A stretch of DNA of 64,000 bases, from NCBI RefSeq assembly GCF_000002425.4, contig NC_037276.1, positions 1,184,538 to 1,248,537 on the forward strand, written 5' to 3'. A model generated the notes under the pieces. That model was not told the DNA's origin. It saw nothing but the letters and a program-made list of their open reading frames with translations, and did not search any database. The stretch is from Physcomitrium patens (lineage: Eukaryota; Streptophyta; Bryopsida; Funariales; Funariaceae). The position numbers and the translations under genes are program-made. This document shows, in pieces, positions 3,570 through 62,204 of this stretch (positions within the stretch are counted from its first letter, which is position 1; each line of letters begins with the position of its first letter).

Positions 3570-3746
3570 ATGCCTTGACTTAAAAGACAAGTTTTTCTAC
3601 GTGTGGGCCACATAGTTAGCTTGGTCTTCAAGCTAACAACATATGTGGCACATAGCCAAATTGTTGATCACGAATTTTAATCCAAAAAACAATTAAAGAC
3701 ACCTATGAAGTCAAAGTAATGTCTATGAAGCTACTTCTACTTTTTA

Positions 3747-6266: not shown

Positions 6267-6277
6267 CTCCCACTTTG

Positions 6278-7336: not shown

Positions 7337-7965
7337 AAAGAAGATGTCGATACGTTGGTATTATGCCCTTGATGATTACTTAAGCCCATACAAGGATTTC
7401 TTCAACTTATACACAAGGTGTTGTTTTCCTTCTTCAACTTATACACAAGGTGTTGTTTTCCTTCTTCAACAAATCCTTGAGATTGATCCATGTAGATGTC
7501 TTCTTCCAATTCTCCATTCAAGAAAGCCGTCTTTACATCCATTTGGTGCATTTTCAAGTTCATTGCTGCCCCAATTGCCACAATGGTTCTAATGGTGGTG
7601 AATTTGGCCACGGGAGCAAATGTCTCATTGAAATCAACACCAACAACTTGTGAGTAGCCTTTGACAACCAATCTTGCGATATATCTCACAATATTGTCCA
7701 TTGCATCCCTTTTGATTCTAAACAACTACTTACAACCAATTGAAGCTTGATTTAGTAGAAGTTGAGTCAATTTCCATGTTTCATTATCCATGAGTGATTT
7801 GTATTCTTCTTCCATAGCATTCTTCCACTTCATAGCATCCGTGGACTTCATTGCATCACATAAAGTCAACAGATCAACAAGAAGTACAACATTGGTATGT
7901 TCTTTACTTACTTGAGGGAAAATATGGTCCTTCCACCATTCACCACGTTGTTTTCTATCTCTCAA
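7337..7965 (-). pseudogene. pol: Copia reverse transcriptase N-half, broken
   Basis: Minus-strand open stretches 7726-7965 and 7402-7725 lie in one frame, separated by a TAG where a TGG tryptophan is expected (GCK-stop-LFRIKRD). They cover the MEEEYKSLMDNETW start of the copia polymerase domain, then LVVKGYSQ, the FAPVAK motif and KTAFLNGELEEDIYM. The frame is lost in the duplicated KLKK region at 7398-7461. Confidence 0.88.
7398..7461. repeat. 32-bp tandem duplication inside copia reverse transcriptase
   Basis: A 32-base unit starting TTCTTCAACTTATACAC occurs at 7398-7429 and again at 7430-7461 with no visible difference, followed by a partial third start at 7462. It is not a multiple of three, so it shifts the reading frame within the KLKKSLYGLK region. 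The identity of the copies suggests the event is much younger than the element. Confidence 0.9.
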
Positions 7966-9428: not shown

Positions 9429-10405
9429 AACAATCTCTAAAATAATGCAGCCATTCCAATAGCTTGTACTATGTCATTGTCTCCCATAACGATATTTGTT
9501 ATTGGAATCTCTTCATAAGTGTCAAATGAATACTTGTATAGAATCATGTACTTGGTGGCACCAAAATCAATGATCCACTTGGACATGGCAGCCATGGAAG
9601 TACCTTCACTTGCCATAAATGCATAATCATCACCTCCATGTTCATCATGAGCATTGTTTGCATTTTTTCTATCTCCTTTCTTAGCCTTGTAGCAATTTCG
9701 AGCAAAGTGACTTGATTTTCCAAAAATGAAGCAAGTTCTCACATTGCCATATTGGTTAGGATGACTTTCCTTGCCTTGCCTTGAAAAGAGAGCCGAATCT
9801 TCACTTTGGGGCTCTTTTTCTTTCTTCTTGGTCACTTCATGGGCAAGTCTTGTCGTCACATAATCCATTGTGAGTTCTTTTATTTTGATGGATTCCAATG
9901 CCACAATGAGGTAGTTGTAGGACTTGGGAAGGCTCATAAGCAAGGTCATGATAATATTACTCTCTTCTAAAGGCTTGTGAATAATTGTAAGTTGATTAGC
10001 AAGGGCCTTTATCTTGTTGACATGAGCCATGAGGTCTTCACCTTCTTCCATCTTGCAAGTGAAGAATTTCTTCCTTGTGAAGATGATATTGGATAAGTTC
10101 TTGCTCTCATATATGTTGCAAAGGGTCTTCCATGCTTCTGCTGGTCCTTTGCAAGAGATGATGTGAGATAAGTTGGCTTCATCCAAATGAGTAGCAATCA
10201 TACCAAAAGCCTTTTTTTCATGTCTTGTGAAGTCCTTCTTCTCTTTAGCATCAGCATGTATGCTTGGAGGCTCTTCACTTTCATCTATAATGTCCCAAAG
10301 GTCCAAAGACACCAACAAAAGCTCCATTTTGACCTTCCAATGGTAGAAATTATCATCTCTAAAATTTTCAATCACTTTCAAACCTTCACCCTCACTTGAA
10401 GCCAT
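9429..10405 (-). pseudogene. gag: Copia gag and start of protease
   Basis: 322 codons from an ATG at 10405. The N-terminus (MASSEGEGLK, FYHWKVKMELLL, GPAEAWKTL, then the LMSLPKSY region) is typical of plant copia gag. The nucleocapsid knuckle reads CFIFGKSSHFARNC, with the second cysteine changed to phenylalanine. The protease start WIIDFGATKYM has DFG where the family has DSG. The frame ends at 9437 because of what looks like a single missing G near 9449; the next frame resumes at once as GCIILEIVMKG. Confidence 0.9.
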
Positions 10406-10874
10406 GTCTTAGAAGAGATCTATCAAAAAATATCAAGAAAAAGAGTCTCTATGTGCTTAAAATCACTAAAACAATTTTGTACTAGTAAAATCTCAAAATA
10501 CCCTCTTGTGAATAAATGAATGTTTCTTCACTCCAAACACTCTCAAATCAACTTTTGAAGCTTCTTACAAGTATGTGAACTCCAATCAACCTCACCATCA
10601 AGTACTTCTACTCATAAAACTCACTTTTTCACCACAAAATCAAAAACACTATCAAGGTCTTTGTATAAGGTCTTAATCACTCAATCCTAGGAGTTAAGAA
10701 CCTTCAAACTAATGTAAGAGATCTATAAGGCCCAAATCAAAACCTCCACAATTCAAAACACAAGATTAGATCATACAATCTCTAACATCAGCAAACACCA
10801 TAAGATCTATTCCACATAAGAGCAAAAACCAGTAAATGAGATCAACTTATTTGAATAGTTAAACAAAGTGTGCA

Positions 10875-10887
10875 TGGGCACATAACC
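10875..10887 (-). promoter_or_regulatory. Copia primer-binding site matching the anticodon arm of initiator tRNA-Met
   Basis: Three bases inside the 5' LTR the element strand reads GGTTATGTGCCCA. From memory of plant and animal initiator tRNA-Met, the complement of its anticodon arm is GGTTATGGGCCCA, one mismatch in 13. The usual plant copia site, TGGTATCAGAGC (tRNA 3' end), is absent. This resembles Drosophila copia, which primes with an internal half-tRNA fragment. Confidence 0.7.
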
Positions 10888-10890
10888 TAT

Positions 10891-11221
10891 TGAAGAAACA
10901 TAATAAGCAAGACACAAGTAAGTAGAAATCAGCAAGGTTAGACATAAGAGAAGTGTGGAATGAGATACCTCTGACTTCCAACATCCTTTACTTATAGGTA
11001 GAGGTTACATCTATTTTGGCTAGTATTCAATTTACTTTCATGCAACTAAATCCTAGCCGCCACTTGAAACCCTAGTCGCCACCTATAACCGTAGCCACCA
11101 CTTAAAACCCTTCTCACCACGTTGAAAACTTTCCTTCATCCTTTTGCTGTCCTTTGACCATTAGCAACTTATCTAAGATAATATCTTTTATCTTCTAACT
11201 TATCTGTCATTTACTTGAATA
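10891..11221 (-). repeat. 5' LTR of copia element
   Basis: Pairs with 5936-6266. Its outer end has decayed from TTTAACA to TTGAATA, so the terminal CA is lost. Most of the roughly 35 differences from its partner are transitions. Confidence 0.88.
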
Positions 11222-25802: not shown

Positions 25803-25846
25803 TATATAGGAGCTGAGACTGAGGAGATTTTTAGTCTTCACAATAC
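25803..25846 (+). promoter_or_regulatory. B promoter: TATA box and predicted mRNA start
   Basis: TATATATA at 25803-25810, and 32 bases from its first T the sequence AGTCTTCACAAT (25835-25846). This stretch is nearly complementary to the sequence two bases inside the LTR, as in family A, so I take it as the beginning of R and of the transcript. Confidence 0.6.
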
Positions 25847-25966
25847 ATCTCTTGGAGCTCTAGCTCACCTCTCTAGTATTATTTTTATATTCATCTCATT
25901 AATCTTATCGATTCTTCTTGAGCTTCTTGTTTAGATTTCCAGTTAGTATTCTAAATTTGTGATAGT

Positions 25967-25977
25967 TTGTCGAGACT
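25967..25977 (+). promoter_or_regulatory. B self-primer binding site (predicted)
   Basis: TTGTCGAGACT, separated from the LTR end by two bases. Its complement AGTCTCGACAA matches the predicted transcript start AGTCTTCACAA at 9 of 11 positions; decay explains the two mismatches. Family A and L have 11-12 perfect matches at the same place. Confidence 0.55.
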
Positions 25978-26756: not shown

Positions 26757-27527
26757 TGTGATTGCTTATTTTACTTATTCTGGAAGAAACCTCCCAGCAT
26801 AAACCCATATAGGGGGATTTGAACATGGAGAATGACCATGTATATGAGCTCTAATTGTTAGGGTCATGTAATTAACCGCTACTGCTAAATGCTTATCATA
26901 CTAAAGAACACTTAACTTTTCTTCCTATTGTCCACTCTCTCGTATCAATATAATAACATCCACAACAACGATTTCAGTACCCTGTGTAATTCACAAACAC
27001 ACAAGTATATCCCAAACCTTAGAATGAACAACTTCCAATCCACAGAATCTAATCAAGACAATTCTTTCGATTACAATTCCTCTCCACTAAACTTACAACC
27101 TTGCGATAAACAATGACTGGAAACTTCCATATGTCTTCAATCTTTCACAACAATTGTTAAACAGTGATCCATAAATAACTTCATAAATCAAACATTAATT
27201 CATTAAATTGATTCTCTTTACTAGAATCAATACTTATACAAAAAAAAATAAGAAAATTAAGAAGAAGAGATAGCACCAAGCTTATCCCCAGCTCAATACT
27301 ATCGCAGTCTGGCCCTCGGCTTATGACTCTCACAGTCTGGCATTTTCTTCCCCTCTCCCATCTTCCTTATACTACCCCGAGATACCAATTCCTATACTAT
27401 AGATAATAACTACTTTTCTTGACTATTCATCCATTCTACCTGCTGAACCACCTTTTCAGCAGTTATCTATCTCTGTTTACACTATACACTAGGTATCTAC
27501 ATTCTGAAAATAACTACTTATTCTACA
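26757..27527 (-). repeat. 3' LTR of C
   Basis: Plus-strand limits TGTGATTGCTTATTTTAC to TTATTCTACA. On the element strand it begins TGTAGAATAAG after the purine-rich GGAGTGGAACTA (complement of 27528 onward). Full-length match to 32402-33171. Confidence 0.9.
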
Positions 27528-27686
27528 TAGTTCCACTCCTAACTGTGCAGCATCCTCGCAAACACTCAATTGATACCTATCTAAAAATTATCTAACAAAA
27601 CTCTACAAAAATTGCGATCCCTCTGGCCTATCTAATTAATGAATTGCCGCAGTATCTGTTATTGGTTCCACCGATTCCGGTTCCAA

Positions 27687-28145
27687 CTACAAATCTTCCT
27701 CCTCCTCCAATCCTTCTATAGGCTCTTTCCTCAACTGAGTTGAAAGGTCTTCATTGTACTCGTCCAGTTCATGGACTTGAGCTTCTAATTTCAGGATCTA
27801 GGCATCTCTCAATTCCAACTGGTGCTGAAAGTGACTCCTCTCTTCTGAAACTTCGGGAACTGGCAACGTCGATACTTGTACTTGACTAATATTGATTAAA
27901 TCCTCTGCCAATCTTGTTACCTCCATGTTCAAGGCTTCAATTTCAGCCCTTAACCACTCCATTTCACATCTGTATTGATCACTCAATACCAGTTTCTCTT
28001 GTGCCAATAACTCGGTCTTTTCTCGTTCCATTACCAATTGACTCTTCGCTTTTTCTAGTTCCAAAATTGAATTACTACGAGCCCGAAATAGTTCTTGTTT
28101 GTGGATCTCTACCATGCGTTCTCTTTCTTGTAATTGGCTCCTCAC
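27687..28145 (-). pseudogene. Coiled-coil open frame before the 3' LTR of C
   Basis: Open from about 28145 to 27798 (115 codons), then, past one TAG, in the same frame to 27687 (LEAQVHELDEYNEDLSTQL...EGLEEEED). Strongly heptad-like and rich in E, K, Q, R and L (ERERMVEIHKQELF, EKAKSQLVMEREKTELLAQ). No known retroelement enzyme. It follows a reverse transcriptase stub, so it is either an additional ORF of this family or captured sequence at the deletion joint. 27528-27686 holds only the purine tract and non-coding sequence. Confidence 0.6.
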
Positions 28146-28520
28146 TGTTAACTCTTAACTCAAACTACTACTCTCGAAAATACAAGAAATACAAGAAAAT
28201 GGCACTCCAACCAACCCAAAACAACACCATAGAATGACTTTAACTGGTGCCCCACTCCTATTCTTTTATTACCTAGTGATAATACCAATATGTTATCCAT
28301 ACTGTTCGTGAAAGGTAATGAGAAGTAATCTTTCTTAGTGGCCACATTAAGTTTCCAAAAATCGTGACAATTTCCATTCTTTTTTGGTACCATCACGATT
28401 GGTGAAACCCATGCACTATGCGGAATAGGATAAATAAAACCCACGTCGAGAAGTTTATCCAATTCCTCTTTCACTAAAAGGAAATATTTTGGATTAAGCC
28501 GATGTTGCCTCTACCATACC
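28146..28520 (-). pseudogene. pol: Reverse transcriptase N-terminal stub of C
   Basis: The open piece 28160-28474 reads VGFIYPIPHSAWVSPIVMVPKKNG, then DFWKLNVATKKDYFSLPFT, the fingers of a Ty3 reverse transcriptase. The sequence then leaves the family before the palm; no YxDD box follows. RNase H and integrase are also absent, so several kilobases are deleted here. Confidence 0.85.
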
Positions 28521-29254
28521 GGTTTAGCATTCTCCTCTAAAATGATACGATGCTCATAGACTTCAGTGGAAATACCTTTTAAATCATCATAAGTACAAGC
28601 AAAAGTGGATTTATGATGCAAGAAAAATTCGCTCCAGCAGGTCAATTCTTAATCCTTAATACCTTCATAGACCTTAATTGTTCGAGGTTCTGTTGTCGTC
28701 GCTAAGTTGATAGTTTGACATAAAGGTGCAACAGCGATGTTCTGTTTCAACCCCCGCACTAGTTTAAAGTTAGTCGGTAAGTTCGACATGTATGAAGTAC
28801 TGAATCCTATATCCAGGGCACTAACATGGTGCACATCATACTTGGTCATCTAATCAGTACTAACATAATCTGAGTTTTCCGAGTCCGTCGGATATATCAA
28901 GTACTCCCTCGGACTTCCACATTGGTACACCACTCCAGGGTATAGTACTGCCTCCACGGGTGCCTCCGTAATTGGTGCTATTGCATCTTCATCGGAGCTA
29001 AGCTGATCGTCCAATGTTAATTCAGATGCTGGCAATTGAGACTCCCCATGATAGTGTACTAGGTACATTTGTAACACCATTTTGTCTCTGTCCTTGCCAA
29101 TTGTCAAAGTACCCTGACTCCAATCGTTCTTAGCTTTGGCTTGATAAAGCCAAAGTCATCCCAATAAAATTAGATATGATAAAGTAGAACTCTGTAATCG
29201 GAATAAAATATAGTCGATTTTATATGCAATACCGGCAATCATAGTTTGAACACT
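28521..29254 (-). pseudogene. pol: Protease to reverse transcriptase spacer of C
   Basis: Open pieces 28850-29107 and 28649-28849 are in one frame separated by a single stop codon (VSTD-stop-MTKYDVHHVSALD). The first is acidic (DDQLSSDEDAIAP). Long variable spacers between protease and reverse transcriptase are normal on the Athila/Tat side of Ty3. No further domain is recognised. Confidence 0.65.
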
Positions 29255-29929
29255 CTATAAGATACCCATTGGCTTTACCCGACTATGATCTGTCATCCGT
29301 AATACCAATGTCGTAGGTACTAAGTGCTCCAAATCTAAAACATCCATTGTATCAGTGTTCATTAAATTAACATTGGAACCACCATCTACCTGAACACCCA
29401 AGATCATAATACCATCAATCGAAACATCGATGGTTGATGCACCTGGGTCAAGGTTCAAACTAACTTCACAAACTTCTTTATTACGGTGCATATGCCATAT
29501 TAACGATGAATTCAATGTAGAACGGCACTCTGGTACGACCGCTAGAAGTTGCTTCATAGAAATAGAAGGCCGAATAGCATCCAGATCCTTCAAAATATCA
29601 TAGGATTCCATATTTAAGATAATTCCCAATGCCTTCTTTCTTTTCATTGGTTTGAATTTAACTCAATGAGGTAAGATATTCTTTTGCCTTGGACTCGGAA
29701 TTAGAACAAAAAATGGGGCTTCCTTGGAATTCCCGCCCCCGAGAGGATCTTTCAATGGATAGGACGTTTCTCGAAACTGCATAGAGATCAGAACTGCTTG
29801 GAACGGAACTGAAGCCTCCGTAATTGGGACCTCATTGGGTTGTGCCACTGATTTAGGTCTCATACTGGGTACAGAGCCCATAACAAGACCTGGATTAGAT
29901 GGTCCCAGCCAATTGGCACGTGGAACCAA
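29255..29929 (-). pseudogene. Retropepsin of C and upstream spacer
   Basis: 29255-29647 is open and contains ILGVQVDGGSNVNLMNTDTM, the flap-side active-site motif in its DGGS form. Upstream, 29663-29929 is open (SVPSMRPKSVAQPNEVP). A homologue of this upstream spacer occurs in plus orientation at 49290-49520, showing the same family in remnant D'. Confidence 0.8.
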
Positions 29930-30207
29930 ATTAGGTTCCTCAGTTTATTGAGATCTCAATATTGGCATACGTCCCAATACTGATATTGGTTCGTTTAGCC
30001 CCATCGATGGCGCTACTTGCTCTCCTGTAATTGGTTCATCTATGTCTTGAATTGGATTCTTGTCTTTTTGTTGGCCTCTGGTAAGCACTGCGTTCACCAC
30101 CTCAACACGATGTACTAGTGAGTCTCATTGAACAGGGCCTTTGTCCTCCGTCGGTTGGCTTGTTTGCATTTGTAAGTCCCAGTTATTATAATTAAGGGCG
30201 CATTGCA

Positions 30208-30879
30208 CTACTGATAAGTGTGACCAGACTGCTTATAATTTCCACATATAGGAGCATAGTCATCACTGGCCCTTGGATTAGGACATTCACTTGCATAATG
30301 TTTGATTTCTCTATAATGATAGCAACGAAGTGGTCTCCTGCCAACTCCTTCAGGGATAATGGGTTTCTCTACTGGTATATAACGGCTACGTCTGTTCCAT
30401 GTTGGATGAGTAAAAGATCTTGGTTGATCCATTGTTATTGTAGAGTCTGGTATTGGCTTCGTCATGGGTGGATATTGATGGTATCCTAGTTGATTCATCG
30501 CCAATTTGTGAGTATTGGATACACCTTCTTGATGAAATTCAGAGTTGAAGAAATTAGAATAATTCCTGTTTTGTTTATTTGCTCGATTTTCATTCCAGCC
30601 AAACCTATTATTCGTCTGTATTTGATTGACATCCCACAAAGTTGGTTGAGTCATTATCTGGTTACTGAGTTGTTGTTGCTTCCGTAAATTCCAACAGTTG
30701 GTGGTAATATGCTTGCCCCCATAAAAGGTACATTGTATAGTCATTTGGGGTGGTGAACGACATTCTGTTATTAAATGACCTTGTTCCTTACAATTGCTGC
30801 ACCAGATATTGGGACGCATATTCATTGGTATATGCCTTTTTTCTTTATCCTTGGCCAAATCCACAGCCAATTCATCCAT
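30208..30879 (-). pseudogene. gag: gag of C, zinc-knuckle region
   Basis: 223 codons with four knuckle-like blocks: CSNCKEQGHLITEC, CTFYGGKHITTNC, CYHYREIKHYASEC and CGNYKQSGHTYQ followed by stop-C. The first is canonical CCHC; the second and third have the middle cysteine as tyrosine; the fourth is cut by TAG just before its last cysteine. In the related D' copy that codon is CAA or CAG, so a C-to-T change made the stop. The stretch 29930-30207 is the frame beyond it and adds nothing clear. Confidence 0.8.
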
Positions 30880-32123
30880 TTTTTTGTCAATGTTAACAGC
30901 AATGACTCATTGGGATCCCTTGATTCCAATACATTTGGCAATTCCTTTGTAGGTATTGGTTTCTGATATGCGGAATAAGGCCCATACCGGTGTGATGATG
31001 ATGGTGGTACAGCTTGCAATGGAACGGCATCCACTATTCCCTGTAGAATTGTACTATAATCAATCCTTCTCAGATAACTTCCCGGTGCGTCATTCCAATT
31101 TGTCATTCGATAGCCTCTTTGAGATGGAATCATCGTGGCTCCAACTGTTAAGTTCTGCTCATAGTGACATTCCTCCCATACTTTTGCTCGCTCAAGAGAT
31201 GATGTAATGGTGGCTGATTGGGCCTCATTTACAAACATTTTCAATTCTGGTGGATGTAGTCCATTAACCAATATGGACAACACAAATGATTTCGGCATTT
31301 GATTATTTGGCCATTTTTGAAGTATATCTGCTACACAACCATAATATGACTGTACCGCTTCCTTTGGTACCATTCTGCTGTTCATTAATTTTTTTCTAAG
31401 ATGTTCTTTAAAACCAATTGGTCAAACATGGACTAAAAATGCATTTTTCAATGCCTTCCAATTGATAAATTGTCCCAGAGGTTGGCGGTTATACCACTCA
31501 AAAGCTATATCTTTCAATGTTGCTGGCAGCCATCTCAGCCAAATGTCTTCTGTTCTTCTATTATTGGCTATACATGTCGTCAAGAATTGAGACAAATATC
31601 GATATGGATCCGCACATGGCAAACTCCAAAAAGTAGGTAATGGCACGACGCTAGTCGTTCGATTGTCCACTGCATCCATTTGAACTGCAATCGAAATTGT
31701 TGGTCCTCCAGACGTCATTAAAGATGCCAGTGTTCCACTCAATTTCTTACTAAAATAAAAACTGTCTCCCGCAAAAGTCTTTTTCAGACTTCCAAGCCTT
31801 CTCGATTGACTATTATTATCTCCAAATAATTTTATTGGTTGAATATGAGGTGAAAACGACAAGTTTTGGTATACTCTAAATTGGTCTTTATTGACAAGTG
31901 ATTTATGCCAATCTTCAGAACTAGTCTTATTAGGATCGGATGTATTTTCAATTGAGAAGATATCCAGAGGGGTACCTAATTCCTCTGTGCCTTCCTCGTT
32001 TTCCATTAACGCCTTCAAGAGGTTTGCTGGACTATTAGCAGTGCTCCTAGTGAGTGCTCTTGGCAATTTCTTTAACGATATGTACTTTTGAAATATTAGA
32101 GGTCGATCGTCTTCTGGGTACAA
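30822..32123 (-). pseudogene. gag: gag of C, capsid region
   Basis: Two in-frame pieces, 31422-32123 and 30822-31385, separated by a TGA where CGA is likely (FLVHV-stop-PIGFKEHL). The capsid-type core shows FWSLPCADPYRYLSQFL, IWLRWLPATLKDIAFEWYN and LRKKLMNSRMVPKEAVQSYY, resembling plant Ty3 gag proteins of the Athila/Tat side. A frameshift near 30870 separates it from the knuckle region. The leader 32124-32380 carries no gene. Confidence 0.75.
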
Positions 32124-32380
32124 TCAAATATGTCGAGAGGCAAGCAACCACAACTTAATCCAACTTTGTTGATGCTTCTTTTTTAATATACGATCTCGCT
32201 CATTATGCAACAAATTTCTTGCTTGTGATCGCTATGTTCTTTCCTTTGATTGCTTTATTCTCTTTGCTGTTAAATTTTTATTCTTAATAACCATATTCTT
32301 TCATTATTTCTACTGAGTTTGCTTCCTAATCTCCTTTACTGCTTCGACAGTTAATTCCTAACACTCAATAATGTTGTCAA

Positions 32381-32397
32381 TCCCCGGTAGCGGCGCT
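32381..32397 (-). promoter_or_regulatory. Primer-binding site of C, tRNA-Asp type
   Basis: On the element strand, four to five bases from the LTR end, AGCGCCGCTACCGGGGA. Athila/Tat elements characteristically use GGCGCCGTTGCCGGGGA, complementary to the 3' end of tRNA-Asp. The differences are few and compatible with decay. Confidence 0.75.
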
Positions 32398-32401
32398 AAT
32401 A

Positions 32402-33171
32402 TGTTATTGCTCGTTTTACTTATTCCGAAAGAAACCTCCCAGCATAAACTCATATAGGGAGATTCGAACACGGGGAATGACCATGTATATGAGCTCCAAT
32501 TGTTAGGGTCATGCAATTAACCGCTACTGCTGAATACTTACCGTACCGAAGAACACTTAATTTTTCTTCCTACTGTCCACTCTCTTATATCAATACAATA
32601 ATATCTACGACAACAATTTCATTACCCTGTGTAATTCACGAACACACAAGCATATCCCAAACCTTGGAACGAACAACTTCCAATCCACAAAATCTAATCA
32701 AGACAATTCTTTCGATTACAATTCCTCTCCTCTAAACTTACAACCTTGCGATAAACAGTGATTGGAAACTTCCATACGTCTTCAATCTTTCACAACAATT
32801 ACTAAAGAGTGATCCATAGATAACTTCATAAATCAAACATTAATTCATTAAATCGATTCTCTTCACTGAAATCAACACTAACACAAAAGAAACAAGAAAA
32901 TTAAGAAGAAGAGATAGCACCAAGCTTATCCCCGGCTCAATACTATCGCAATTTGGCCCTCGGCTTACGACTCTCATCGTCTGGTATTTTCTTCTCTTCT
33001 CCCATCTTCCTTATACTTCTCCGAGATACCAACTCCTATATTATAGATGATAACTACTTTTCCTGACTATTCATCCATTCTACCTGATGAACCATCTTTT
33101 CAGCAGTTATCTATCCCTATTTATACTATACACTAGGTATCTACATTCTGAAAATAACTACTTATTCTACA
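32402..33171 (-). repeat. 5' LTR of C
   Basis: Plus-strand limits TGTTATTGCTCGTTTTAC to TTATTCTACA, then GCTAC. Pairs with 26757-27527. I count on the order of 60 differences, mostly transitions, so insertion is older than element A. Confidence 0.9.
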
Positions 33172-34354: not shown

Positions 34355-35479
34355 TAGGAAGGAGCACAACCACCTTTTGGTCCAATCTATAATTTCTCGC
34401 AGATGAAGTTAGTGGAGTTACGGAAGTACATTGACGAGAATTTAGCCAAGAACTTCATTTGTCATTTGAAGTTGTTAGTTGAGGCATCAATCTTATTTGT
34501 GAAGAAGAAAGATGGCTTGCTGCAGATATGCAAGGATTATTGAGGTCTCAATAAGGTGACAAAGAAGAATTGTTATTCATTACCCTTGATATCAGGTCTT
34601 CTAGAGCAACTTAGGTATGGAAGGATCTTTACAAAGATTGATCTAAAGGGAACTTACAACCTCGTGCGAATTAAGGAAGGAAACGAATGGAAGACAACTT
34701 TTCGTAGAAGATATGGCCATTTTGAATATAATGTCATGCCTTTTGGTCTTACCAATGCTCTTGCCGTCTTTCAACACATGATAAATGACATCTTTTGGGA
34801 GCACTTTGATGATTTTGTTGTTATCTATCTAGATGATATTTTGATATTTTCCAAGAATGTAGAAGAGCATAAAAAATGTATTTATCTGGTCCTTAAAACA
34901 TTCTACAAGCGAAGACTTTACGTCAAGTTGGAGAAGTGCTTATTTAACCAAACTGAGATGAAATTTTTGAGATTCATTACAACTATGGAAGGCTTGAAGT
35001 TAAACCCTAAGAATGTGGAAGTAATTGTATCATGGGAAGTTCCAAAGATGATTAGAGATGTATAGTGCTTTCTTGGCTTTGCTAACTTCTATCAGATCTT
35101 CATCAAGAATTATTCTCAAGTTGTTGCTCTGCTCACTTGGTTGACATATAAAGACAAGCTCGAATGGAGACCTCTAGTGAAAAAAAAACATCCTAAGATC
35201 TTAAGATGGTATTTGCTATGGCTCCAATCTTGGTACATCCAGACTTTGCAAAGGCCTTCTATTTGGAGACCGATGCTTCAAATTTTGCTATTGGAGTTGT
35301 ACTTTCACAGATAGGTGCATACAAAAAGCTTCATCCAATTGCATTCTACTCTCAAAAGTTTTTTGTTGCCGAGATCAACTATGAGATCCATGATAAAGAA
35401 CTTCTTGCCATAGTGGATTCTTTCTAAGAATGGCATCACTTTCTCGAAGGAGTTGTGCATCCAGTGACCGTATACATGG
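34355..35479 (+). pseudogene. pol: Reverse transcriptase and RNase H of B
   Basis: 169 open codons (34556-35065) hold the palm with [13 protein letters not shown] and the complete active site [18 protein letters not shown]. RNase H (35206-35427) shows LETDASNFAIGVVLSQ and INYEIHDKELLAIVDSF. Stops at 34541 and 35063 and a shift near 35170 break it. The D insertion at 35480 falls between VTVY and the DHKNLEYF motif. Confidence 0.88.
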
Positions 35480-37308
35480 TGTCTTGACGTAATATGACTA
35501 GTAGGTGAAAGTGTGAAGAAATATATCATGTTTTGAGGATCTCACTTCAAAAATATTGTAGCAAATTATCTTGGAAAAATAGATATTAGTAAAAAGGTAG
35601 AAAAATTAAAGGTGCTAATGCTGCCTTTTTACAAATTATGCTTCTATTTACTTTATAAGGCCATAAATAAGGCAAAACAAGGTAGATTTTAAAAATAAAG
35701 GATATAGACATATGTAGGAAGGAGTTAGGAATGCAAATTAGTAAAAATTACCTCAAGAACACGAAAGTTGATATCCGGAGAGGGCCGGTTATGAACCAGG
35801 GTCGAAATCAGACCCTGAGGGACAAAACCGAGTCTCGACGACAACTCCGGAACTCTTTGGTAAATCGAAGAGTGGAGTTTAATAGAAGCTTGAATAAGGT
35901 TTCTATGGGCATTGATTTTGGGTGATTTGGAGTTGATATGACTTTGTAAGAGCTTTGCAAAGTAGAGGTTTGTTTCGGATGACTTGGATTTTATGAAATA
36001 AAATAGGGTTTATGTTTTGAGTGATTTCGAGAGTTTTGTTGTAGATCTATAGGTGAAATTTTCTTAGTTCATGATTATAGTTGTATTAAATATATGTTGT
36101 GAATTTGAGCTCGATTTAAAGGTTGAAGTGAGAGATATTGAGGTTTAAGCGGGTCAAGGTCTCAATAAGTAGAATTTTAGGTCTAGTGAGGGTTTTTAAG
36201 ATTTCATGCAATCTACTAGTTGGATTGGAATAAAACTTATGTAAAAGGGTATAAGACTTGTTTTTCTATGTCCATGAGAAATTTAAAACCAATCGAACGG
36301 CGCAAAGAAGAGAAATTGGCTCTGGAAGGTTGGCATCAAGATTGGAGAAGGAGGCCGGCTAACACCCAAATACATTTTTGAGGATAACGTCAATTTGGTA
36401 ACTCCGATCCATTTCAAATTTTTTTGTACTTGTTTTAAACTTGATTTTTAAAAATTATGCAAATTTTGAATTGAGATCAATAGTACTTCATTAGATATTG
36501 AGGTTTAAATCTGTCATAGGAATTACTAGGATTTGGATTAGGGTTTGGCTAGGGTTCGATTTAGGGTTTGATTTAGAGTTTAGGATTTGGATTAGGATTT
36601 GGTTAGGGTTTGATTAAGGATTTGGATTAGGGTTTGGATTAGGGTTTAGATTTTGATTAAGGTTTGATTTAGGATTTGGATTAGGATTTAGTTAGGATTT
36701 GATTTAGGGTTTGGATTAGAGTTTGGATTAGGATTTAGGATTTGATTAGGATTTAGGGTTGGATTAGGATTTGGATTAGGATTAAGGGTTTGGTTAGGGT
36801 TTGATTTAGGATTTGGATTAGGATTTGGTTAGAGTTTGATCTAAGGTTAAGTTTAGGGTTTAGGATTTGGATTATGGTTTAGGATTGATTTAGGATTTGG
36901 TTTAGGATTTAGGGTTTGAAATAGGGTTTGATTTAGGGTTTAATTTAAGGTTTGTTTAGGATTTGACTTAGGATTTAGGATTTATTAGGGTTTAAGATTT
37001 AATTAGATTTGGTCTAAAGTTTGAGTGAAATTCAATAGGGTTTTAACTAGAATTAAATTAAGGTTGAATTGACATATATTTGAGTAATATTTGTGATCAT
37101 TCTAATATTTTTTTAAGAATTTTATTATTTGTTTGAAATTTCTTTGAGTTGTTTTGAATTTGATTATGTTTGTTTATCATTATTATAGTCTAATTAGAAC
37201 ATTATTAGTATTCTATTAGAATTAGGATTTTGTTATCGCAATTTCTATTCTTCCTTCTACACCCATTTGCTCGGAGCATTCTCAAGTAAGACTTCACACA
37301 TTACGACA
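35480..37308 (+). mobile_element. Solo LTR D (long-LTR family P)
   Basis: About 1.83 kb, TGTCTTGACGTAATATGACTAG to CATTACGACA, with no retroelement coding motifs. It separates CATGG on the left from AACGG/ACGGA on the right; the uninterrupted site would be about CACGG, consistent with a 5-bp duplication decayed by one base each side. The same two ends occur at 48655 and 56538. Its middle carries a long telomere-like repeat tract. Confidence 0.75.
36525..37015 (+). repeat. Telomere-like degenerate repeat tract in D
   Basis: About 490 bp of head-to-tail variants of GATTAGGGTTTGGATTAGG and TTTAGGGTTT, i.e. 6-7 and 12-13 base units related to the plant telomere repeat TTTAGGG. Copies are irregular with many A-for-G changes. 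It lies inside a solo LTR, so it is an internal LTR minisatellite rather than a chromosome end. Confidence 0.85.
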
Positions 37309-41938: not shown

Positions 41939-42149
41939 AATAACACTTAGAAAAAAAAGATGTCTAATATCGCTCAAGAAAAATAGAAGAGAGGACTTGA
42001 GAAAAAAGAAAATATTAAGGACAATATTAATTTAGAAGAAAGTAATCTTCAACTTCTAATACGCTTATGTCTTATTAAGAGAAAGAGGTAATCTACTCTT
42101 AATCAAGATTAGACAAAGCTTTGATATTATAAGCGCACTCTTGTCAATC
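41939..42149 (-). promoter_or_regulatory. L leader with self-primer binding site
   Basis: A 211-base leader. Two bases from the LTR the element strand reads TTGACAAGAGTG (complement of 42136-42147). This is perfectly complementary over 12 bases to CACTCTTGTCAA in the LTR (42322-42333 on the plus strand as TTGACAAGAGTG), about 30 bases downstream of the TATATATA box. Confidence 0.75.
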
Positions 42150-42707
42150 TGTCAAGGACAAGAACTTGATAAAAATAAATAAACAAGTGAAACTTTTGTC
42201 AAATAAAGATGACAAAATAGAAATAATTCAATATTTATATTAAGAAAGAAACTAGAATGGCTATTACTAAAAGACAAGAAAATTAGAGACCCTTGAAACT
42301 AGACTAGAAGCAAGAAAGGAGTTGACAAGAGTGAAGAGGGCTTCATTTTTGTTTCTATATATACTATCTAATTAGGAGCTATGTGGTGATGTTCTATAGG
42401 ACCTTCAATATGTGTTGACTTTGTAGGACACATGCCTTGACTTACAAGGCAAATTTTTCTATGTGTGGGCCACATAGTTAGCTTGGTCTTCAAGCCAACA
42501 ATATATGTGGCACATGGCCAACTTATTGATCACATTTCTAATCCAAAAAGTCAATTAAAGACACCTATGAAGTCAAAGCAATGTCTATGAAGCTTCTAAG
42601 AAGCTACCATAGAAGATATTATAGAATTAACTTATTTTTATTTACTTTTATTTACTTCCATCTATTTATATATGTAATTACTGACTTACATGCATATGTC
42701 CGTGACA
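42150..42707 (-). repeat. 5' LTR of L
   Basis: Plus-strand limits TGTCAAGGACAAG to GTCCGTGACA, both termini intact, followed by GATAC. Same length as its partner at 21558-22115. Confidence 0.92.
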
Positions 42708-49564: not shown

Positions 49565-50094
49565 TGTCAAGGATAAGAACTCGATGAAAGCTAAAGAGTA
49601 AGTGAGACTTTTCTCAAAAAGAAATAGGACAAAATAGAAATATGTATATTAAGAAAGAAACTGGAATGGCTATTGCCAAAATACAAGAAAACTAGAGACC
49701 CTTGAAACTAGACTAGAAGCAAGAAAGGAGTTGACAAGAGTGAAGAGGGCTTCACTCTTGCCTCTATATATACTATCTAACTAGAAGCCACGTGGCGATG
49801 TTCTATAAGACCTCCAATATATGTTGACTTTCTAGGCCACATGCCTTTGCTTGCAAGGCAAGTTTTCTATGGATGGACCACGTAGTTAGCTTGTTCTTTA
49901 AGCTTTCAACATGCGTGGCACATGGCTAACTTGTTGACCAAGTTTCTAACCTAAAAGTCAACTATAGACTCCTATAAAGTCAAAGCAGCGTCTATGAAGC
50001 TTCTAAGAAGCTTCTCTAGAAGATATTACACAATTAACCTACTTTTACATACTTTTATCTATTCATATAGGTAATTATATGTATGTCCGTGACA
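49565..50094 (-). repeat. 3' LTR of A
   Basis: TGTCAAGGATAAG to GTCCGTGACA on the plus strand. The purine tract lies at 50095-50112 (complement CCCTAGAAGGGCGGGTAA). At 49996-50022 a run of alternating GAA and TTC modules (GAAGCTTCTAAGAAGCTTC, then TCTAGAAG) resembles a loose heat-shock element. Confidence 0.95.
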
Positions 50095-50333: not shown

Positions 50334-53300
50334 TCATCTTGGTTTTGATGGATGTCGTTGATGAAAAACTTTGACTTTAGCTGATGCATTTGCTAGATTC
50401 CTGGATGGCTCCCATGTGCGCTCACTAATATCATATCCGCACCAATGAACAAGATATTCCAGCTTATTTCGGCGCCGCCTTGAGTCTAATATCTCTTCCA
50501 CCTCAAATTCTTCATTATTATCTACTTCTATAGGAGGCGGTGGCATTTGTCTTCTTCCTTGTATATCCACTGTCTTATATGGTTCAAGAAGAGACATGTG
50601 GAATACAGGATGGATCTTCATTGACTCCGGTAGATGTAACCGATATGCAACTGGGTTGATCTGTTCAGAAACAGAAAAGAGGCCAAGCCTACGATAGTCC
50701 AATTTGTCACAAGGTCGAGTGGTCTTGATATTGCGACGAAGTAGCCATACCTTATCACCCACATTGAGTTGTGGTTGCTCTTTACGATATACATCTGCAT
50801 TTATCTTTTGTCGTTCTTGAGCTTTCTTCAACTGCGCCTTCATTATTGCATGTAACTCTGACAACCGATTTGCCATATCTTCTGCTGCAAGATTATCAAC
50901 TTTTGAAAAATCAAAAGTATCAAGTCGTGGATGATAGCCATAATTGGCAAAGAAAGGTGTTTGTTGCGTGGAGGAATGTACCGTATTATTATAAGCAAAC
51001 TCTGCCAATGGCAGAAGGTTTGTCCAATCATCTTGTTGGTAGTTGATGGTACACCTTAAATACTGTTCCAAGACTTGGTTTACGCGCTCTGTTTGTCCAT
51101 CAGTTTGAGGATGGAAAGCTAAAGATAGCTTTATGTCCACTTTTAAAATCTTGAAAAGAGTCCTCCAAAATCTCGACACAAATTGAGTTCCCCTATCCGA
51201 TATGATATCTTTAGGCAATCCATGATAGCGATAGATATTATCAATGAAAAGCTTAGCTGTTTCTTCACCTGTGATAGATTTTGTACATGGCATAAAATGT
51301 GCCATCTTGGTGAAACGATCTACTATCACAAATATAGAATCATAAGATCTTGAGTTTGGAAGATCTGTGATGAAATCCATAGAAACAGAAGACCATGATT
51401 GTTCTGGTATAGGTAATGGCTGAAGAAGTCCGTAAGGTCGATGTCGAGGAATTTTTGATCTTGAACAAATATCACATGATTGTACAAAGTCTTTGACTGA
51501 CTTCCACATTTGTGGCCACCAAAAATCTCTTGATATGAGTTCCAAAGTCTTATTATATCCAAAGTGCCCTGCTGCTGGAAAGTCATGACGTGCTTGAAGA
51601 ACACGCAAACGTGCTTTTCCTTCTGGAACATATAGGCATCCTTCAAAATATAATAGATTATTCTTGAACTCGAACTTAGAAGAATCATGAGACTTGGAAG
51701 AATTATTCTCGATATCATGAACAAGAGGGTCTGAGGACATACTGGACTGGATTTGCTTGAGAAAAGTTGAATCAACAGTCAATGTTGATTTCACTGCTCG
51801 GAGATGAAATTGCTCCGGTTTCAAGAGGACCGTTCTTTGTTGCTCAAAAGCTGCATCTCCTTCTTTTGGTGCAAAATAAGAACGTCTAGACAGGGCATCG
51901 GACAAACCTTGTTGTTTTCCTGGCCGATAAGTGATAATGAAGTCGAATCTTGACAAAGACATACTCCAACGAGCTTGACGACGATTCAACACGCGTGCTG
52001 ACATGAAATACTCGAGGTTCTTGTGATCTGTATACACAATGACTGGACTAGAAGCACCTTCTAGATAATGACGCCATTCTTGAAAAGAATCCACGATTGC
52101 AAGAAGTTCTTTATCGTGGATCTCATAATTGATCTCGGCTGCTGAGAATTTTCTTGAATGAAAAGCTATCAGATGAAGTTTGTCATCTGTTCCCATTTGT
52201 GATAAAACTGCACCCAAGGCAAAATCCGATGCGTCTGTTTCCATAAAAAATGCCTTGGAAAAGTCAACACGATATAAGACTGGTGCAGAGACAAACGATG
52301 TCTTCAAGGCTTCAAATGCTGCTTCCGCTTCTTGATTCCATTGGAATTTATCTTTACTAGTCAAGCGTGTAAGTGGAGCTGCAACTCGTGAGAAGTCTTT
52401 GATGAAGATCCGATAGTAATTGGCAAATCCCAAGAAACATTGGACATCTCTTACAGTCTTTGGAATCTTCCAATCCATGATTGTTTGGACTTTCTTAGAA
52501 TCCATCATAAGACCATCATTTGAAATGATGTATCCTAAAAAGTCAACTTGAGTAGTATGAAATACACACTTTTCCATCTTGGCGTACAATCCTGCATCTC
52601 TGAGTTTTTGTAATACTTGACGAACATGTATTTCATGTTCTTCAACATTCTTAGAATAAATCAGGATATCGTCTAGGTAGCAGACGACAAAATTGTCTAA
52701 GAATTCACGAAATACATCATTCATGAGATGTTGAAAAGCAGCTGGTGCATTCGTGAATCCAAAAGGCATGACATTATATTCAAAATGCCCGTACCTGGTT
52801 CGAAACGCAGTCTTCCATTCATCTCCTTCTTTGATCCGTACTAGATTATATGCTCCTCTTAGATCTATTTTTGTATAGATCTTAGCTTGATTTAACTGGT
52901 CAAGGAGTCCTGATATCAAAGGTAATGGATACCTGTTCTTGATTGTGATCTTGTTGAGTCCTCGATAGTCAACACACATTCGTAAAGATCCATCTTTTTT
53001 CTTTACGAATAGAATTGGAGCTCCTGCTGGAGATTTTGAATGGCGTATGAAATTCTTCGCTAAATTCTCGTCAATATATGTCTTGAGTTCAGCCAACTCA
53101 TCTTGCGATAAACTGTAAATTGGTCCAAATGGTGGCTGAGTTCCTTCCTTGAGATCGATTGAACAATCGTATGGGCGATGCTCAGGAAGAATATCTGCAT
53201 TCTTTTTCTCAAAAACGTCTTGATAATCCTGATATTGACTTGGAATGCCACTTGAAGTCTTTACGCTTTCAGAAATAGGTGCAGCATAAATAGCAAAAGT

Positions 53301-53822
53301 TGATCCTTCTTTTGCTGCGTGTATAAATGCTTTTGCACCTATAGGTGCGAGTTTTACTATACTAGACTCATGGTTTTTTACTTGGTTAATAGAACTGTTA
53401 CTAATGCTCTGAGGAAAATCAAGTTTACGAGAAATCCAATCTATTCGAGGATTATACTTTTCTAACCATGATAAGCCTAAAATTACTGGATTAGAGGGAG
53501 ATCTAATTATATTAAAAATTACGCAACTACTATGACCATTTATTACTACATCTACAGGAAGTGTTTCGTGAGTTACATCTCCAGAAGACAACGGACGACC
53601 ATCTATGACTTCTACGTGTACAGGTTTAGTTTTTTGTATTAATGATATTCTATGACATCTAGCAAATTCTTCATCTAAAAAACAAGATGAGGCTCCTGAA
53701 TCTACCAAGGCAGAGGCTTTGTAATTATTAGGTCCTAAACGCACATCTATTATAAAACAAGGAGATGGTTCTGAGGAGAGGATAGGACCTTTATTAGAAG
53801 TTGTACAAAATTCCAGCCGCAC
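50334..53822 (-). CDS. pol: Chromovirus Pol polyprotein, intact frame
   Basis: 1162 codons without a stop. Retropepsin DSGAS at residues 41-45. Reverse transcriptase about 213-460, with LPEHRPYDC at 212, VMPFG at 351 and YLDD at 382-385. RNase H about 510-640, with the TDASD aspartate at 530, the YEIHDKE region at 566-572 and the TDH aspartate at 599. Integrase HHCC with H746, H753, C783 and C786; core D816, D876 and E912 (D,D-35-E). The C-terminal module has GLF where GPF/Y is usual (1047). Chromodomain about 1105-1158 with W1127 and W1137. The frame starts at GTG (53822), five bases after the gag stop; L and G4 have ATG here. All catalytic residues are present, so it may encode active enzymes. 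Confidence 0.95.
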   Translation of the reverse strand: MRLEFCTTSNKGPILSSEPSPCFIIDVRLGPNNYKASALVDSGASSCFLDEEFARCHRISLIQKTKPVHVEVIDGRPLSSGDVTHETLPVDVVINGHSSCVIFNIIRSPSNPVILGLSWLEKYNPRIDWISRKLDFPQSISNSSINQVKNHESSIVKLAPIGAKAFIHAAKEGSTFAIYAAPISESVKTSSGIPSQYQDYQDVFEKKNADILPEHRPYDCSIDLKEGTQPPFGPIYSLSQDELAELKTYIDENLAKNFIRHSKSPAGAPILFVKKKDGSLRMCVDYRGLNKITIKNRYPLPLISGLLDQLNQAKIYTKIDLRGAYNLVRIKEGDEWKTAFRTRYGHFEYNVMPFGFTNAPAAFQHLMNDVFREFLDNFVVCYLDDILIYSKNVEEHEIHVRQVLQKLRDAGLYAKMEKCVFHTTQVDFLGYIISNDGLMMDSKKVQTIMDWKIPKTVRDVQCFLGFANYYRIFIKDFSRVAAPLTRLTSKDKFQWNQEAEAAFEALKTSFVSAPVLYRVDFSKAFFMETDASDFALGAVLSQMGTDDKLHLIAFHSRKFSAAEINYEIHDKELLAIVDSFQEWRHYLEGASSPVIVYTDHKNLEYFMSARVLNRRQARWSMSLSRFDFIITYRPGKQQGLSDALSRRSYFAPKEGDAAFEQQRTVLLKPEQFHLRAVKSTLTVDSTFLKQIQSSMSSDPLVHDIENNSSKSHDSSKFEFKNNLLYFEGCLYVPEGKARLRVLQARHDFPAAGHFGYNKTLELISRDFWWPQMWKSVKDFVQSCDICSRSKIPRHRPYGLLQPLPIPEQSWSSVSMDFITDLPNSRSYDSIFVIVDRFTKMAHFMPCTKSITGEETAKLFIDNIYRYHGLPKDIISDRGTQFVSRFWRTLFKILKVDIKLSLAFHPQTDGQTERVNQVLEQYLRCTINYQQDDWTNLLPLAEFAYNNTVHSSTQQTPFFANYGYHPRLDTFDFSKVDNLAAEDMANRLSELHAIMKAQLKKAQERQKINADVYRKEQPQLNVGDKVWLLRRNIKTTRPCDKLDYRRLGLFSVSEQINPVAYRLHLPESMKIHPVFHMSLLEPYKTVDIQGRRQMPPPPIEVDNNEEFEVEEILDSRRRRNKLEYLVHWCGYDISERTWEPSRNLANASAKVKVFHQRHPSKPR

Positions 53823-53827
53823 GGTCC

Positions 53828-54835
53828 CTATTGTAGCTGGACGTACTCGTTTTCCGACATACTGTCTTCTTTGACAGCCGTACTCCTCATTTTGTAGTTA
53901 CGTCGCTTTTTTGGACAATGTTGAGCAGTGTGCTTAGGTTCTCCACAATATAAGCACAATCCTTCTTGTCGACGACGAGACTTTTCTTGCTCAGTAAGAG
54001 GTTTGAAACGTACCGCATCAATTTGCATATCCTCTACTTCTGAAGGTATGTGTTGAGGAGACGTCGGTGTTGCCATTGAATTGTAGTAACGTTGAGGCCC
54101 ACTTGTGCGACTCTCGGATCGAAATTCAAAAAGTCGATTGTCGCACTTCACAGCAAAGTCAATTGCTTGACTCAATGTTTGAGGATCAGGTAAATTAAGC
54201 ATCAATTTCTTTACCTCATATTGTAATCCGTAGAGAAATTGACTCACAAGTGCGGCATCATCCCACTTGATATCAGTTGCAAGTTGTCGAAATTGCGAAG
54301 CATATAATGTTACTGATCGATTGTCTTGTCACAAAATACGGATCTTGTTGGTTGCAACACGAATTGCATCATGTTCTCCAAACATGGATCGAAACTCCGC
54401 CAAAAAAGCCTCCAGATTATCCAATATTGGATCTCGTCGTTCAAGAAAAGATGAAAACCATAACAATGCTGAACCTGAAAGAAGTGTACCAATGAATCTA
54501 ACTTGTGACCCTGGAGTTGGATAGCTCTGGGGTTGAAGTTCAATCACTAGTTGGACCTGATTGATGAATCCTCGAAACTTGGATCTGGTACCATCAAACT
54601 TCTCGGGCAAGGCAACTCTCGGTTCTCTAACACTCGAAGGGTGTTCCATTCTGGGAAAAGGGACATGGTTTGGTGCAGATGTTGAAGCAGCCCCAATCAT
54701 CTCTATATCTTCACTTCCTACCATTCTTGTTGCTCCTTGTGGTGGTAAATTGAGTTGATGCATCGCAAGCATTAACTCCCTCAATTGTTCTTGCATCTGT
54801 GCCATTGCACTCTTCATTTCAACAAGCTCTGCCAT
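53828..54835 (-). pseudogene. gag: gag of A, one premature stop
   Basis: Starts ATG at 54835 (MAELVEMKSAMAQMQEQL, probably a coiled coil). The capsid core includes LPEKFDGTRSKFRGFINQVQ and GTLLSGSALLWFSSFLE. A single TGA at 54326-54328 (RIL-stop-QDNRSV) splits an otherwise continuous frame of about 335 codons; CGA in an ancestor is likely. The second half (53828-54247) has the CCHC knuckle CLYCGEPKHTAQHC. Gag ends at TAG (53828-53830); pol overlaps in the -1 frame. Confidence 0.9.
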
Positions 54836-55047
54836 AGTAGCACTTAGAAAAGAGAAGATGTCTAATAACGCTCAAAACAAATAGAAGAGAGGAATTGATA
54901 ACAAAGAAAATACTAAGAACAATATCAGTTTAAAAGAGGGTAATCCGCAACTTCTAATGCGCTTATGTCTTATCAAGAAAAAGGGGTAATCCACTCTTAA
55001 TCAAGAAAAGACAAAGCTCTGATATTGTAAGTGTACTCTTGTCAATC
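54836..55047 (-). promoter_or_regulatory. Leader of A with self-primer binding site and repeated motifs
   Basis: 212 bases. The primer site is the complement of ACTCTTGTCAA (55035-55045), two bases from the LTR; it is perfectly complementary over 11 bases to the predicted transcript start (complement of 55214-55225). Two copies of the GGATTACCC motif lie at 54983-54994 and 54936-54950. Confidence 0.75.
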
Positions 55048-55577
55048 TGTCAAGGACAAGAACTCGATGAAAGCTAAAGAGTAAGTGAGACTTTTCTCAA
55101 AAAGAAATAGGACAAAATAGAAATATGTATATTAAGAAAGAAACTGGAATGGCTATTGCCAAAATACAAGAAAACTAGAGACCCTTGAAACTAGACTAGA
55201 AGCAAGAAAGGAGTTGACAAGAGTGAAGAGGGCTTCACTCTTGCCTCTATATATACTATCTAACTAGAAGCCACGTGGCGATGTTCTATAAGACCTCCAA
55301 TATATGTTGACTTTCTAGGCCACATGCCTTTGCTTGCAAGGCAAGTTTTCTATGGATGGACCACGTAGTTAACTTGTTCTTTAAGCTTCCAACATGCGTG
55401 GCACATAGCTAACTTGTTGACCAAGTTTCTAACCTAAAAGTCAACTATAGACTCCTATAAAGTCAAAGCAGCGTCTATGAAGCTTCTAAGAAGCTTCTCT
55501 AGAAGATATTACACAATTAACCTACTTTTACATACTTTTATCTATTCATATAGGTAATTATATGTATGTCCGTGACA
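55048..55577 (-). repeat. 5' LTR of A
   Basis: TGTCAAGGACAAG to GTCCGTGACA, then CTAGC. TATATATA at 55248-55255; predicted start of R at 55225, 30 bases on. A perfect palindrome spans them (arms 55218-55228 and 55233-55243, 11 bp, loop of 4). Confidence 0.95.
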
Positions 55578-61000: not shown

Positions 61001-61550
61001 TATCAAGGACATAAATCTCAAAGAAAGAAAATCCTCAATACATTCTTTTGTCACTAAAGAGAACTAGAAAGTGATTGAAAAGGTGATGTAATATTAAACT
61101 AGAATGGCTATTAGCAAAAAAAAGAAGATTAAAAAGTCTTGAAATCAGACTAAGGACTAGAAAGGCATTGACAAGAGGAAAGAAGGTTTCATTCTTGCCT
61201 CCATATATACTCTTAACTAGGAGCTACGTGGTGATGTCCTGTAAGACCTCCAAAATGTGTTGACTTTACTAACCACATGTCTTAATTTGCAAGGCAAGTT
61301 ATCTGTATATGCGCCACATAGTTAGCTTGTTCCACAAGCTATTACACAAAGTTAACTTATTCCACAAGCTACCAATAAGTGGTTAATTTGTTGGCCAAGT
61401 TTCTATCCTATAAATACATGTAAAGTCAAAACCGTGTCTATAGAGCTTTTAGAAAGCTTCTCTAGAAGACTTAATGAAATTAATCTATATTTATCTACTT
61501 CTACCTAATCATATAAATAACTATTGAAATAAATATATATGTCTATCACA
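61001..61550 (-). repeat. 5' LTR of G4
   Basis: Plus-strand limits TATCAAGGACATAAATC to GTCTATCACA. Pairs with 47752-48289. Both have CCTCCATATATACTCTTAACTAGGAG-like promoter regions, distinct from A and L. Confidence 0.85.
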
Positions 61551-61710
61551 TGTAGTATACTCTCTTTAAAGAAAACAATCAATATTAGAAAATTAAAAAT
61601 GAGTTTTAAAAGTGAGTAGTCTGTAACACTCAAAACACAACAATAGATGTAGGATAGTCTATTCACTTCTAACAAAAAATATAGACAACAAGTTAGCACT
61701 CTTGTCAAAC
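61551..61710 (-). promoter_or_regulatory. Leader of K with self-primer binding site
   Basis: Matches the G4 leader and continues from the K leader that breaks at 47751. TTGACAAGAGTG (complement of 61697-61708) lies two bases from the LTR. It pairs over 11 bases with ACTCTTGTCAA at the predicted transcript start in the adjoining LTR (complement of 61876-61886). Confidence 0.7.
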
Positions 61711-62204
61711 TATCAAGGACATGAATCTTAGATAACTAAAAAATCAATATACTCTTTTGTTACTCAAAAAGATTGAAAAATCACTCAAAGATGATTTAAT
61801 ATTAAACTATAATGGCTATTGCCAAAAAGAAGAAGACTAAAAAGTCTTGAGACTAGACTAAAGACTAAAAAGACATTGACAAGAGTAAAGAAGACTTCAC
61901 TCTTGACTTTATATATACTATCTAACTAAGAGCTACGTAACGACATTCTATAGAACCTACAACATGTGTCCAATTTGTAAGACACTTATCTTAACTTGCA
62001 AGACAAGTTTCTTATATGTGCGCCACATTATTAGCTTCTATCATAAGCTATACACATATAGGATACATGGCTAATTATGTAAAAAATCAAATATGCGTCT
62101 ATGAAGCTTCTAAAAAGCTTTGTCATAAGATAATATCAAATCTACTTATATTTTTACCTTCTACCTAGTACTTCTTATCTGGATAAATATACATGTCTAT
62201 GATG
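61711..62204 (-). repeat. 5' LTR of K
   Basis: Plus-strand TATCAAGGACATGAATC to GTCTATGATG, both termini decayed. Contains TTTATATATAC and the R-region stretch. The oldest-looking LTR of this group in the window. Confidence 0.8.

Follow-up and report, generated by a model that had tools for sequence, protein, structure and literature searches.

The window, the whole stretch of 64,000 nucleotides analysed here, consists of nested retrotransposons within a 470-Mb genome. One of them, element A, lies on the minus strand and has an LTR pair that is 99.06% identical. The ends of its LTRs were read by eye from the sequence, and the 5-bp duplication GCTAG (element sense) is found at both ends of the element, which fixes the 5' LTR at positions 55048-55577. 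Between this LTR and gag lie a 2-nt gap, an 11-nt segment referred to here as the slot, and a structured leader module (Table 1). The slot is complementary to a segment of the same length located within the 5' LTR, shortly past the TATA box.

Table 1. Features of element A and of copies L, K, and B, in window coordinates
Feature	Positions	Strand	Basis
5' LTR of A (TGTCACGG...CCTTGACA, element sense)	55048..55577	-	ends from TG..CA and the GCTAG target-site duplication
TATA box of the A 5' LTR (TATATATA)	55248..55255	-	sequence; 31 nt from first T to primer segment
Presumed start of the A RNA, with the self-primer (ACTCTTGTCAA)	55214..55224	-	11/11 complementary to slot; start presumed from TATA spacing
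2-nt gap (GA) from LTR end to slot of A	55046..55047	-	sequence
Putative primer-binding slot of A (TTGACAAGAGT)	55035..55045	-	adjoins gap; 11/11 in 27/30 A-type copies
Leader module (CAATATCAG ... two GGATTACC hairpins ... CTGATATTG)	54911..55029	-	minimum-energy fold; hairpins also in consensus fold
gag ORF part of A	54329..54835	-	DUF4939; sub-threshold match to Ty3 capsid
pol of A: protease, RT, RNase H, integrase, SH3_Tf2-1, chromodomain	50334..53822	-	Pfam matches
3' LTR of A	49565..50094	-	LTR pair comparison, target-site duplication
Slot of copy L	42137..42147	-	sequence
Putative self-primer segment of copy L	42322..42332	-	sequence
Slot of copy K	61698..61708	-	sequence
Putative self-primer segment of copy K	61876..61886	-	sequence
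Putative self-primer segment of the decayed family B copy (AGTCTTCACAA)	25833..25843	+	sequence
Slot of the family B copy (TTGTCGAGACT), separated by the gap GT from the LTR end at 25964	25967..25977	+	sequence
RT fragment taken as part of the same B element	34544..35062	+	LTR pair, collinearity, RT search

In the pol region of A, the integrase is followed by a chromodomain (Pfam Chromo) that aligns with those of HP1 and CDYL, and that holds F, W, and Y at the positions which we take to be those of the aromatic cage. A search of the genome with A pol yielded at least 40 places at 98-100% identity, these being the best 40 of 66,572 first-look candidates. The named relatives of this protein among the 120 matches listed were fungal, algal, and fish sequences, and no relatives of it were found in IMG/VR with patterns derived from the single A pol protein.

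Several other elements share the window. A gypsy-type LTR element (26757-33171, minus strand) is apparently nested in B, so that the 5' part of the B copy and the RT fragment listed in Table 1 would belong to one element, split by this insertion. Such an arrangement would fit the report that, among nested element pairs in P. patens, Phygy in Tcn1 is the commonest (PMC6911290). A decayed copia element occupies positions 5932-11219 (minus strand). Around 500 bases of degenerate telomere-like repeats (variants of TTTAGGG/TTAGGATTTGG) are present at 36527-37065, far from the contig end, and text similar to these repeats also appears in the locus L043.

The genome holds eight LEAFY-domain matches above the cut-off, two of them strong. 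The LEAFY protein obtained by joining three exon pieces has its best match at 95% and its nearest named relatives in Ceratodon purpureus (93%) and Sphagnum (81%), and this proximity to named moss sequences indicates that the host is a moss, very probably Physcomitrium patens. The LEAFY genes and these moss matches also dispel the doubt about a plant host that had been raised by the fungal, algal, and fish sequences among the relatives of A pol. Element A is probably RLG1, a chromodomain Ty3/gypsy element of the Tcn1 lineage. Its probable identity with RLG1 is suggested by the published description of that element, and its membership of Tcn1 follows from the host and from the features of A. RLG1 has been described as a chromodomain gypsy element and as the most abundant transposable element of P. 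patens, with 5,092 complete copies; it is expressed in protonema, polymorphic among accessions, and recently mobile (PMC7466625). Element A resembles it in its chromodomain, its gypsy affiliation, and its great abundance, and the 99% identity of the A LTR pair can be set beside the recent mobility of RLG1. Approximately half of the P. patens genome has been reported to consist of LTR elements, Tcn1 included (PMC3729371).

The slot of A (TTGACAAGAGT) and its presumed primer (ACTCTTGTCAA) are complementary at 11 of 11 positions. The same score is obtained for copies L and K, and the window copy of family B retains 9/11 plus one G-U pair. Counted from the first T of TATATA, the match begins after 31 nt in A, L, and K, and after 32 nt in B. 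The original prediction had announced this pairing over 11 bases in A and K and 12 in L, some 30 bases past the TATA box, as well as the same geometry with other letters and 9 of 11 matches in B. All of this is borne out by the sequences except for the twelfth base quoted for L, which precedes the presumed start. It had also located the slot two bases inside the 5' LTR; the site is right and the wording is not, because the slot lies two bases downstream of the LTR end, outside the LTR and internal to the element. The idea that the pairing stretch lies inside the LTR, and would hence be unable to prime, was rejected, since the GCTAG duplications fix the LTR end.

When the letters of the slot were shuffled, 0 of 1501 shuffles for each of A, L, and K matched any part of the LTR as well as the real slot does, or better. 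For the B copy, this occurred in 38 of 1000 shuffles in a full scan (38 of 1501 with a script that skips candidates mismatched at both ends), so that the window B copy carries little weight when taken by itself. The 5' LTR of K2 (61096-61551), the fifth compared, reaches only 8/11, and two other LTR elements of the window, whose LTR ends were placed by eye, do not exceed 8/11 against their own LTRs at gaps of 0-5. Both A and a B-type copy found elsewhere in the genome (L075) give 11/11 exactly at a gap of two.

Scoring of further copies has confirmed that the pairing is real and genome-wide. Among the A-type copies, for which 30 loci were returned out of 40 places listed, 27 show 11/11 and three show 10/11, and the gap GA is kept in all 30. 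The A-type 10-mer pair at the A spacing occurs at 3,644 places in the genome, and a backward control pattern at none. With K as the query, 150 places were listed: K, and 149 more at identities of 58-72%. Forty of these 149 were retrieved, made up of the 20 that follow K in the list and another 20 scattered over lower ranks; 17 were unscorable, and scoring was based on anchors that exclude both 11-mers. At least 9/11 is found in 19 of the 23 scorable K-type copies and 11/11 in five; L055 and L064, whose low scores look like one-base register shifts, were kept as low. The scored K-type copies are old copies. Their sequence from primer to LTR end averages 67% identity to A (one A copy against 23 K copies), and despite this divergence A and K share identical 11-mers.

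A and B share 61% identity in RT, and a search with the B RT listed B itself and 149 others at 76-80%; judged by these comparisons, B is a distinct and abundant family. Of these 149, forty were retrieved, namely the top 20 and a further 20 selected by hand, many of them for long open frames; 37 of the forty were scored, L077, L080, and L092 being left unscored. The B-type primer AGTCTCGACAA and slot TTGTCGAGACT pair at 11/11 in 27 of these 37 copies, at 10/11 in eight, and at 9/11 in two. Two B copies carry 5-bp duplications (ATCTC and ATGCC) that fix the LTR end and leave a two-base gap, as in A. Better-preserved members of the family pair perfectly, and the window B copy is thus one of its decayed members. 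The pairing first read in the window is therefore kept by most of the further copies scored, at 11/11 in A and B, and at 9/11 or better in K.

The two families differ in three of the 11 pairs, and each of these differences involves both sides of the helix: pair 2 changes from C-G in A to G-C in B, pair 6 from T-A to C-G, and pair 8 from T-A to A-T. As a consequence, the primer of A against the slot of B, or that of B against the slot of A, matches at 8/11. In register, Watson-Crick cells amount to 99.1% in A (30 copies), 82.6% in K (23), and 97.1% in B (31), and they drop to 10-36% when the helix is slid by 1-3 bases; for B, this slide test and the counts of flanking bases cover 31 of the 37 scored copies. 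The base after the 11 is paired in none of the 84 copies (0/30 A, 0/23 K, 0/31 B). The base before the 11 is paired in 2/30 A and 2/31 B copies, and in 15/23 of the K type; since these K-type copies, and also L, pair one base further upstream, the statement that the helix has exactly 11 pairs is limited to A and B. These data show that complementarity is maintained between primer and slot. The claim that covariation between A and B argues against chance is thus supported, with 3/11 pairs changed on both sides and full pairing kept in most of the scored copies; the three-pair difference may represent few evolutionary events.

The combination of an A primer with a B slot at the A spacing was encountered at four places (C8:15995955, C9:4698300, C14:11911530, and C20:1248433), where the matched text is in every case a reversed B LTR end. 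These mixed places are B LTR insertions, in which a reversed B-type LTR sits inside an A- or K-type LTR, shortly past the primer segment. Since the search pattern itself demanded that distance, they provide no evidence of an insertion preference.

We propose, with a probability of roughly 0.88, that A and B are moss chromodomain Ty3/gypsy retrotransposons whose reverse transcription is begun by self-priming of the Tf1 type. This mode of priming, the one originally proposed, is supported by the observed position of the slot, the 11-nt length, the spacing from the TATA box, the conservation among copies, and the compensatory change between A and B; the start site, the cut, and the priming itself are inferred. 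According to this model, transcription would begin around 31 nt past the first T of the TATA box, and the RNA would start with the 11-nt primer. Its 5' end would then fold over and pair with the slot that lies two bases past the LTR end, and this complementarity is shown by sequence, conservation, and covariation. By analogy with Tf1, the RNase H of the element would cut after base 11 and free the primer, which would be extended into U5, copying the 2-nt gap and thereby setting the LTR end, and the extra two bases would presumably be removed by the integrase. Because 5-bp duplications mark the LTR ends of A and of two B copies, the slot is known to sit where a primer has to be.

Self-priming has been worked out in fission yeast, where RNase H separates base 11 of the Tf1 RNA from base 12 and the first 11 bases serve as the primer (PMC7175516). 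Tf1 of Schizosaccharomyces pombe resembles A and B in that these first 11 bases are complementary to a site just past the 5' LTR. It also resembles A in having a chromodomain integrase, and A matches the Pfam family SH3_Tf2-1. Besides the central duplex, Tf1 needs two flanking duplexes (PMC10085805), and the three duplexes form a structure known as the "pretzel". In contrast, only the central duplex is supported in A and B, whose host is a moss and whose RNA start and cut are predicted by the model.

With RNAfold, the RNA 5' end of A, L, and K pairs with the slot at a per-base probability of 0.62-1.0. The decayed B copy gives 0.55-0.64 save for one unpaired base, and its best fold is without the helix. 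Consensus folds contain the complete primer:slot helix in A and 8/11 of its pairs in register in B, and do not choose it in K. Flanking duplexes were sought in six tests on single copies. Upstream of the slot, the longest match measures 6 bp in A (175/1000 shuffles being as long), 9 bp in a K copy (6/1000), and 5 bp in B (316/1000); downstream, the corresponding values for A, K, and B are 5 bp (910/1000), 6 bp (402/1000), and 7 bp (71/1000). No consistent counterpart of the flanking duplexes of Tf1 was thus found in A, K, and B. The A leader folds with an unremarkable energy (z -0.68), which 45 of 200 shuffles equal or better. Of the Tf1-like leader fold that had been anticipated, the central duplex is well supported, while the flanking duplexes lack consistent support across families, and the full Tf1 architecture is not well supported.

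The slot is followed directly by the leader module, which in the predicted fold of A consists of a closing stem, AATATCAG/CTGATATT, around two hairpins, each with GGATTACC. There is one module in the leader of A and three in tandem in the B-type copy L075, and modules are also present in the leaders of L076, L087, and others. A search for this module retrieved 97 instances, 62 of them distinct. A consensus fold of 12 of the 62 distinct sequences, chosen by hand to span types, comprises 28 predicted pairs, 10 of which show changes on both sides. This fold keeps both hairpins and not the closing stem, which appears in the single-sequence fold. The folding z-score of the A module is -2.11, and Rfam, at the thresholds used, returned nothing for the window and for L076, and so no match to the leader module. 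Another small predicted hairpin, GGCAATAGCC, is located in the R-U5 part of A (55151-55160, minus strand); this sequence is found exactly in 30/30 A-type, 11/23 K-type, and 0/31 B-type leaders.

Other explanations for the complementarity have to be weighed against self-priming. The A and B elements might be primed by a tRNA, in which case the iMet-like sequence TATCAGAGC of the leader, which we take to equal part of the plant iMet primer site, would be a true or relic primer site. This sequence is indeed present in 30/30 A leaders and in most of the B leaders printed. However, it starts around 23-26 nt past the LTR end in A and B, which is too far in to define that end, and it is not accompanied by the TGG that pairs with the CCA of the tRNA. 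Moreover, it occurs twice in the B leader of L075, plus once as TTTCAGAGC, it serves as the 5' arm of the predicted closing stem of the leader module, where it pairs with CTGATA, and it is found in 0/40 fetched K loci. On account of its distance, the missing TGG, its recurrence, its role in the closing stem, and its absence from the K loci, TATCAGAGC was rejected as a primer site, and tRNA priming of A and B is considered very unlikely. Nor does a tRNA 3'-end match lie beside the LTR, in agreement with the original prediction: a TGG within the first 15 nt is absent from 30/30 A and 31/31 B copies, and present in 1/23 K copies. A tRNA-Met site next to the LTR, as in Tekay, Reina, CRM, and Galadriel, is not found in A and B. 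Two other elements of the window do look tRNA-primed, as the copia element has a primer site that we take to resemble half of the iMet tRNA, and the gypsy-type element presumably has a degenerate Asp-tRNA-like site. The half-iMet primer type has been reported for the Bryco lineage (PMC6317226).

The duplex between the RNA 5' end and the slot could also act in packaging, dimerisation, or as a translation switch, with priming entrusted to another molecule such as a tRNA fragment. Leaders of retroelements often carry long-range helices, and the covarying structured module directly downstream of the slot could be seen in the same light. Nevertheless, the duplex takes up precisely the site by which the LTR end is set, stops at the first base of the slot, and tracks the distance from the start site. 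In addition, a tRNA fragment would need to have changed in step with the 5' end of the element in A as well as in B, and such a role is regarded as very unlikely. As for chance, or a functionless inverted repeat passed down by descent, it could account for the window B copy on its own, which 38 of 1000 shuffles equal or surpass. It is scarcely credible for the whole, since no shuffle did so for A, L, and K, since A and B differ on both sides of the helix and most scored copies of either family still pair fully, and since the pairing is conserved in K.

Self-priming, the reading preferred here, may have a further dimension. Given that A and B match each other's partner at only 8/11, primer and slot might evolve as a family-specific lock and key, each family priming only from its own RNA, and the adjoining array of structured modules might mark the RNA for the same cycle. 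This extension is tentative, and we consider it doubtful.

Self-priming as such is no novelty in this moss lineage. Neumann and colleagues have already predicted it in print for 12% of plant LTR elements, for the majority of Tcn1 elements in mosses and club mosses, and also for the copia TAR lineage (PMC6317226). The Tcn1 lineage (Neumann 2019) resembles A in its moss host, its chromodomain close to the classical ones, its lack of a tRNA primer site, and its predicted self-priming, and an aromatic cage has been reported in the chromodomain of 95% of its members (PMC6317226). The TAR lineage (Houba, Osr-1) is comparable to A and B in that self-priming has been proposed for it in plants (PMC6317226), but it belongs to the Ty1/copia superfamily and is an unrelated element. 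No primer site was seen by Novikova and colleagues in a Tcn1 element of Selaginella (PMC2864245). PpatensLTR2 of P. patens is among the elements analysed in a study in which the Tf1/sushi group is treated as present in non-seed plants (PMC10085805).

In the accessible text of PMC6317226 on Tcn1, neither primer sequences nor covariation were found. Within the open-access literature, as far as its texts were accessible, plant self-priming appears in the form of predictions only; no primer sequences were found for moss elements, and no paper on retrotransposon self-priming in Physcomitrium. What is added here is the compensatory covariation between A and B together with the structured leader module. 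Two abundant families of one moss, probably a genetically tractable one, thus provide compensatory evidence for self-priming, along with a prediction that is precise to 11 nt. Should A be RLG1, this prediction could be tested on an element that is expressed and has recently been mobile.
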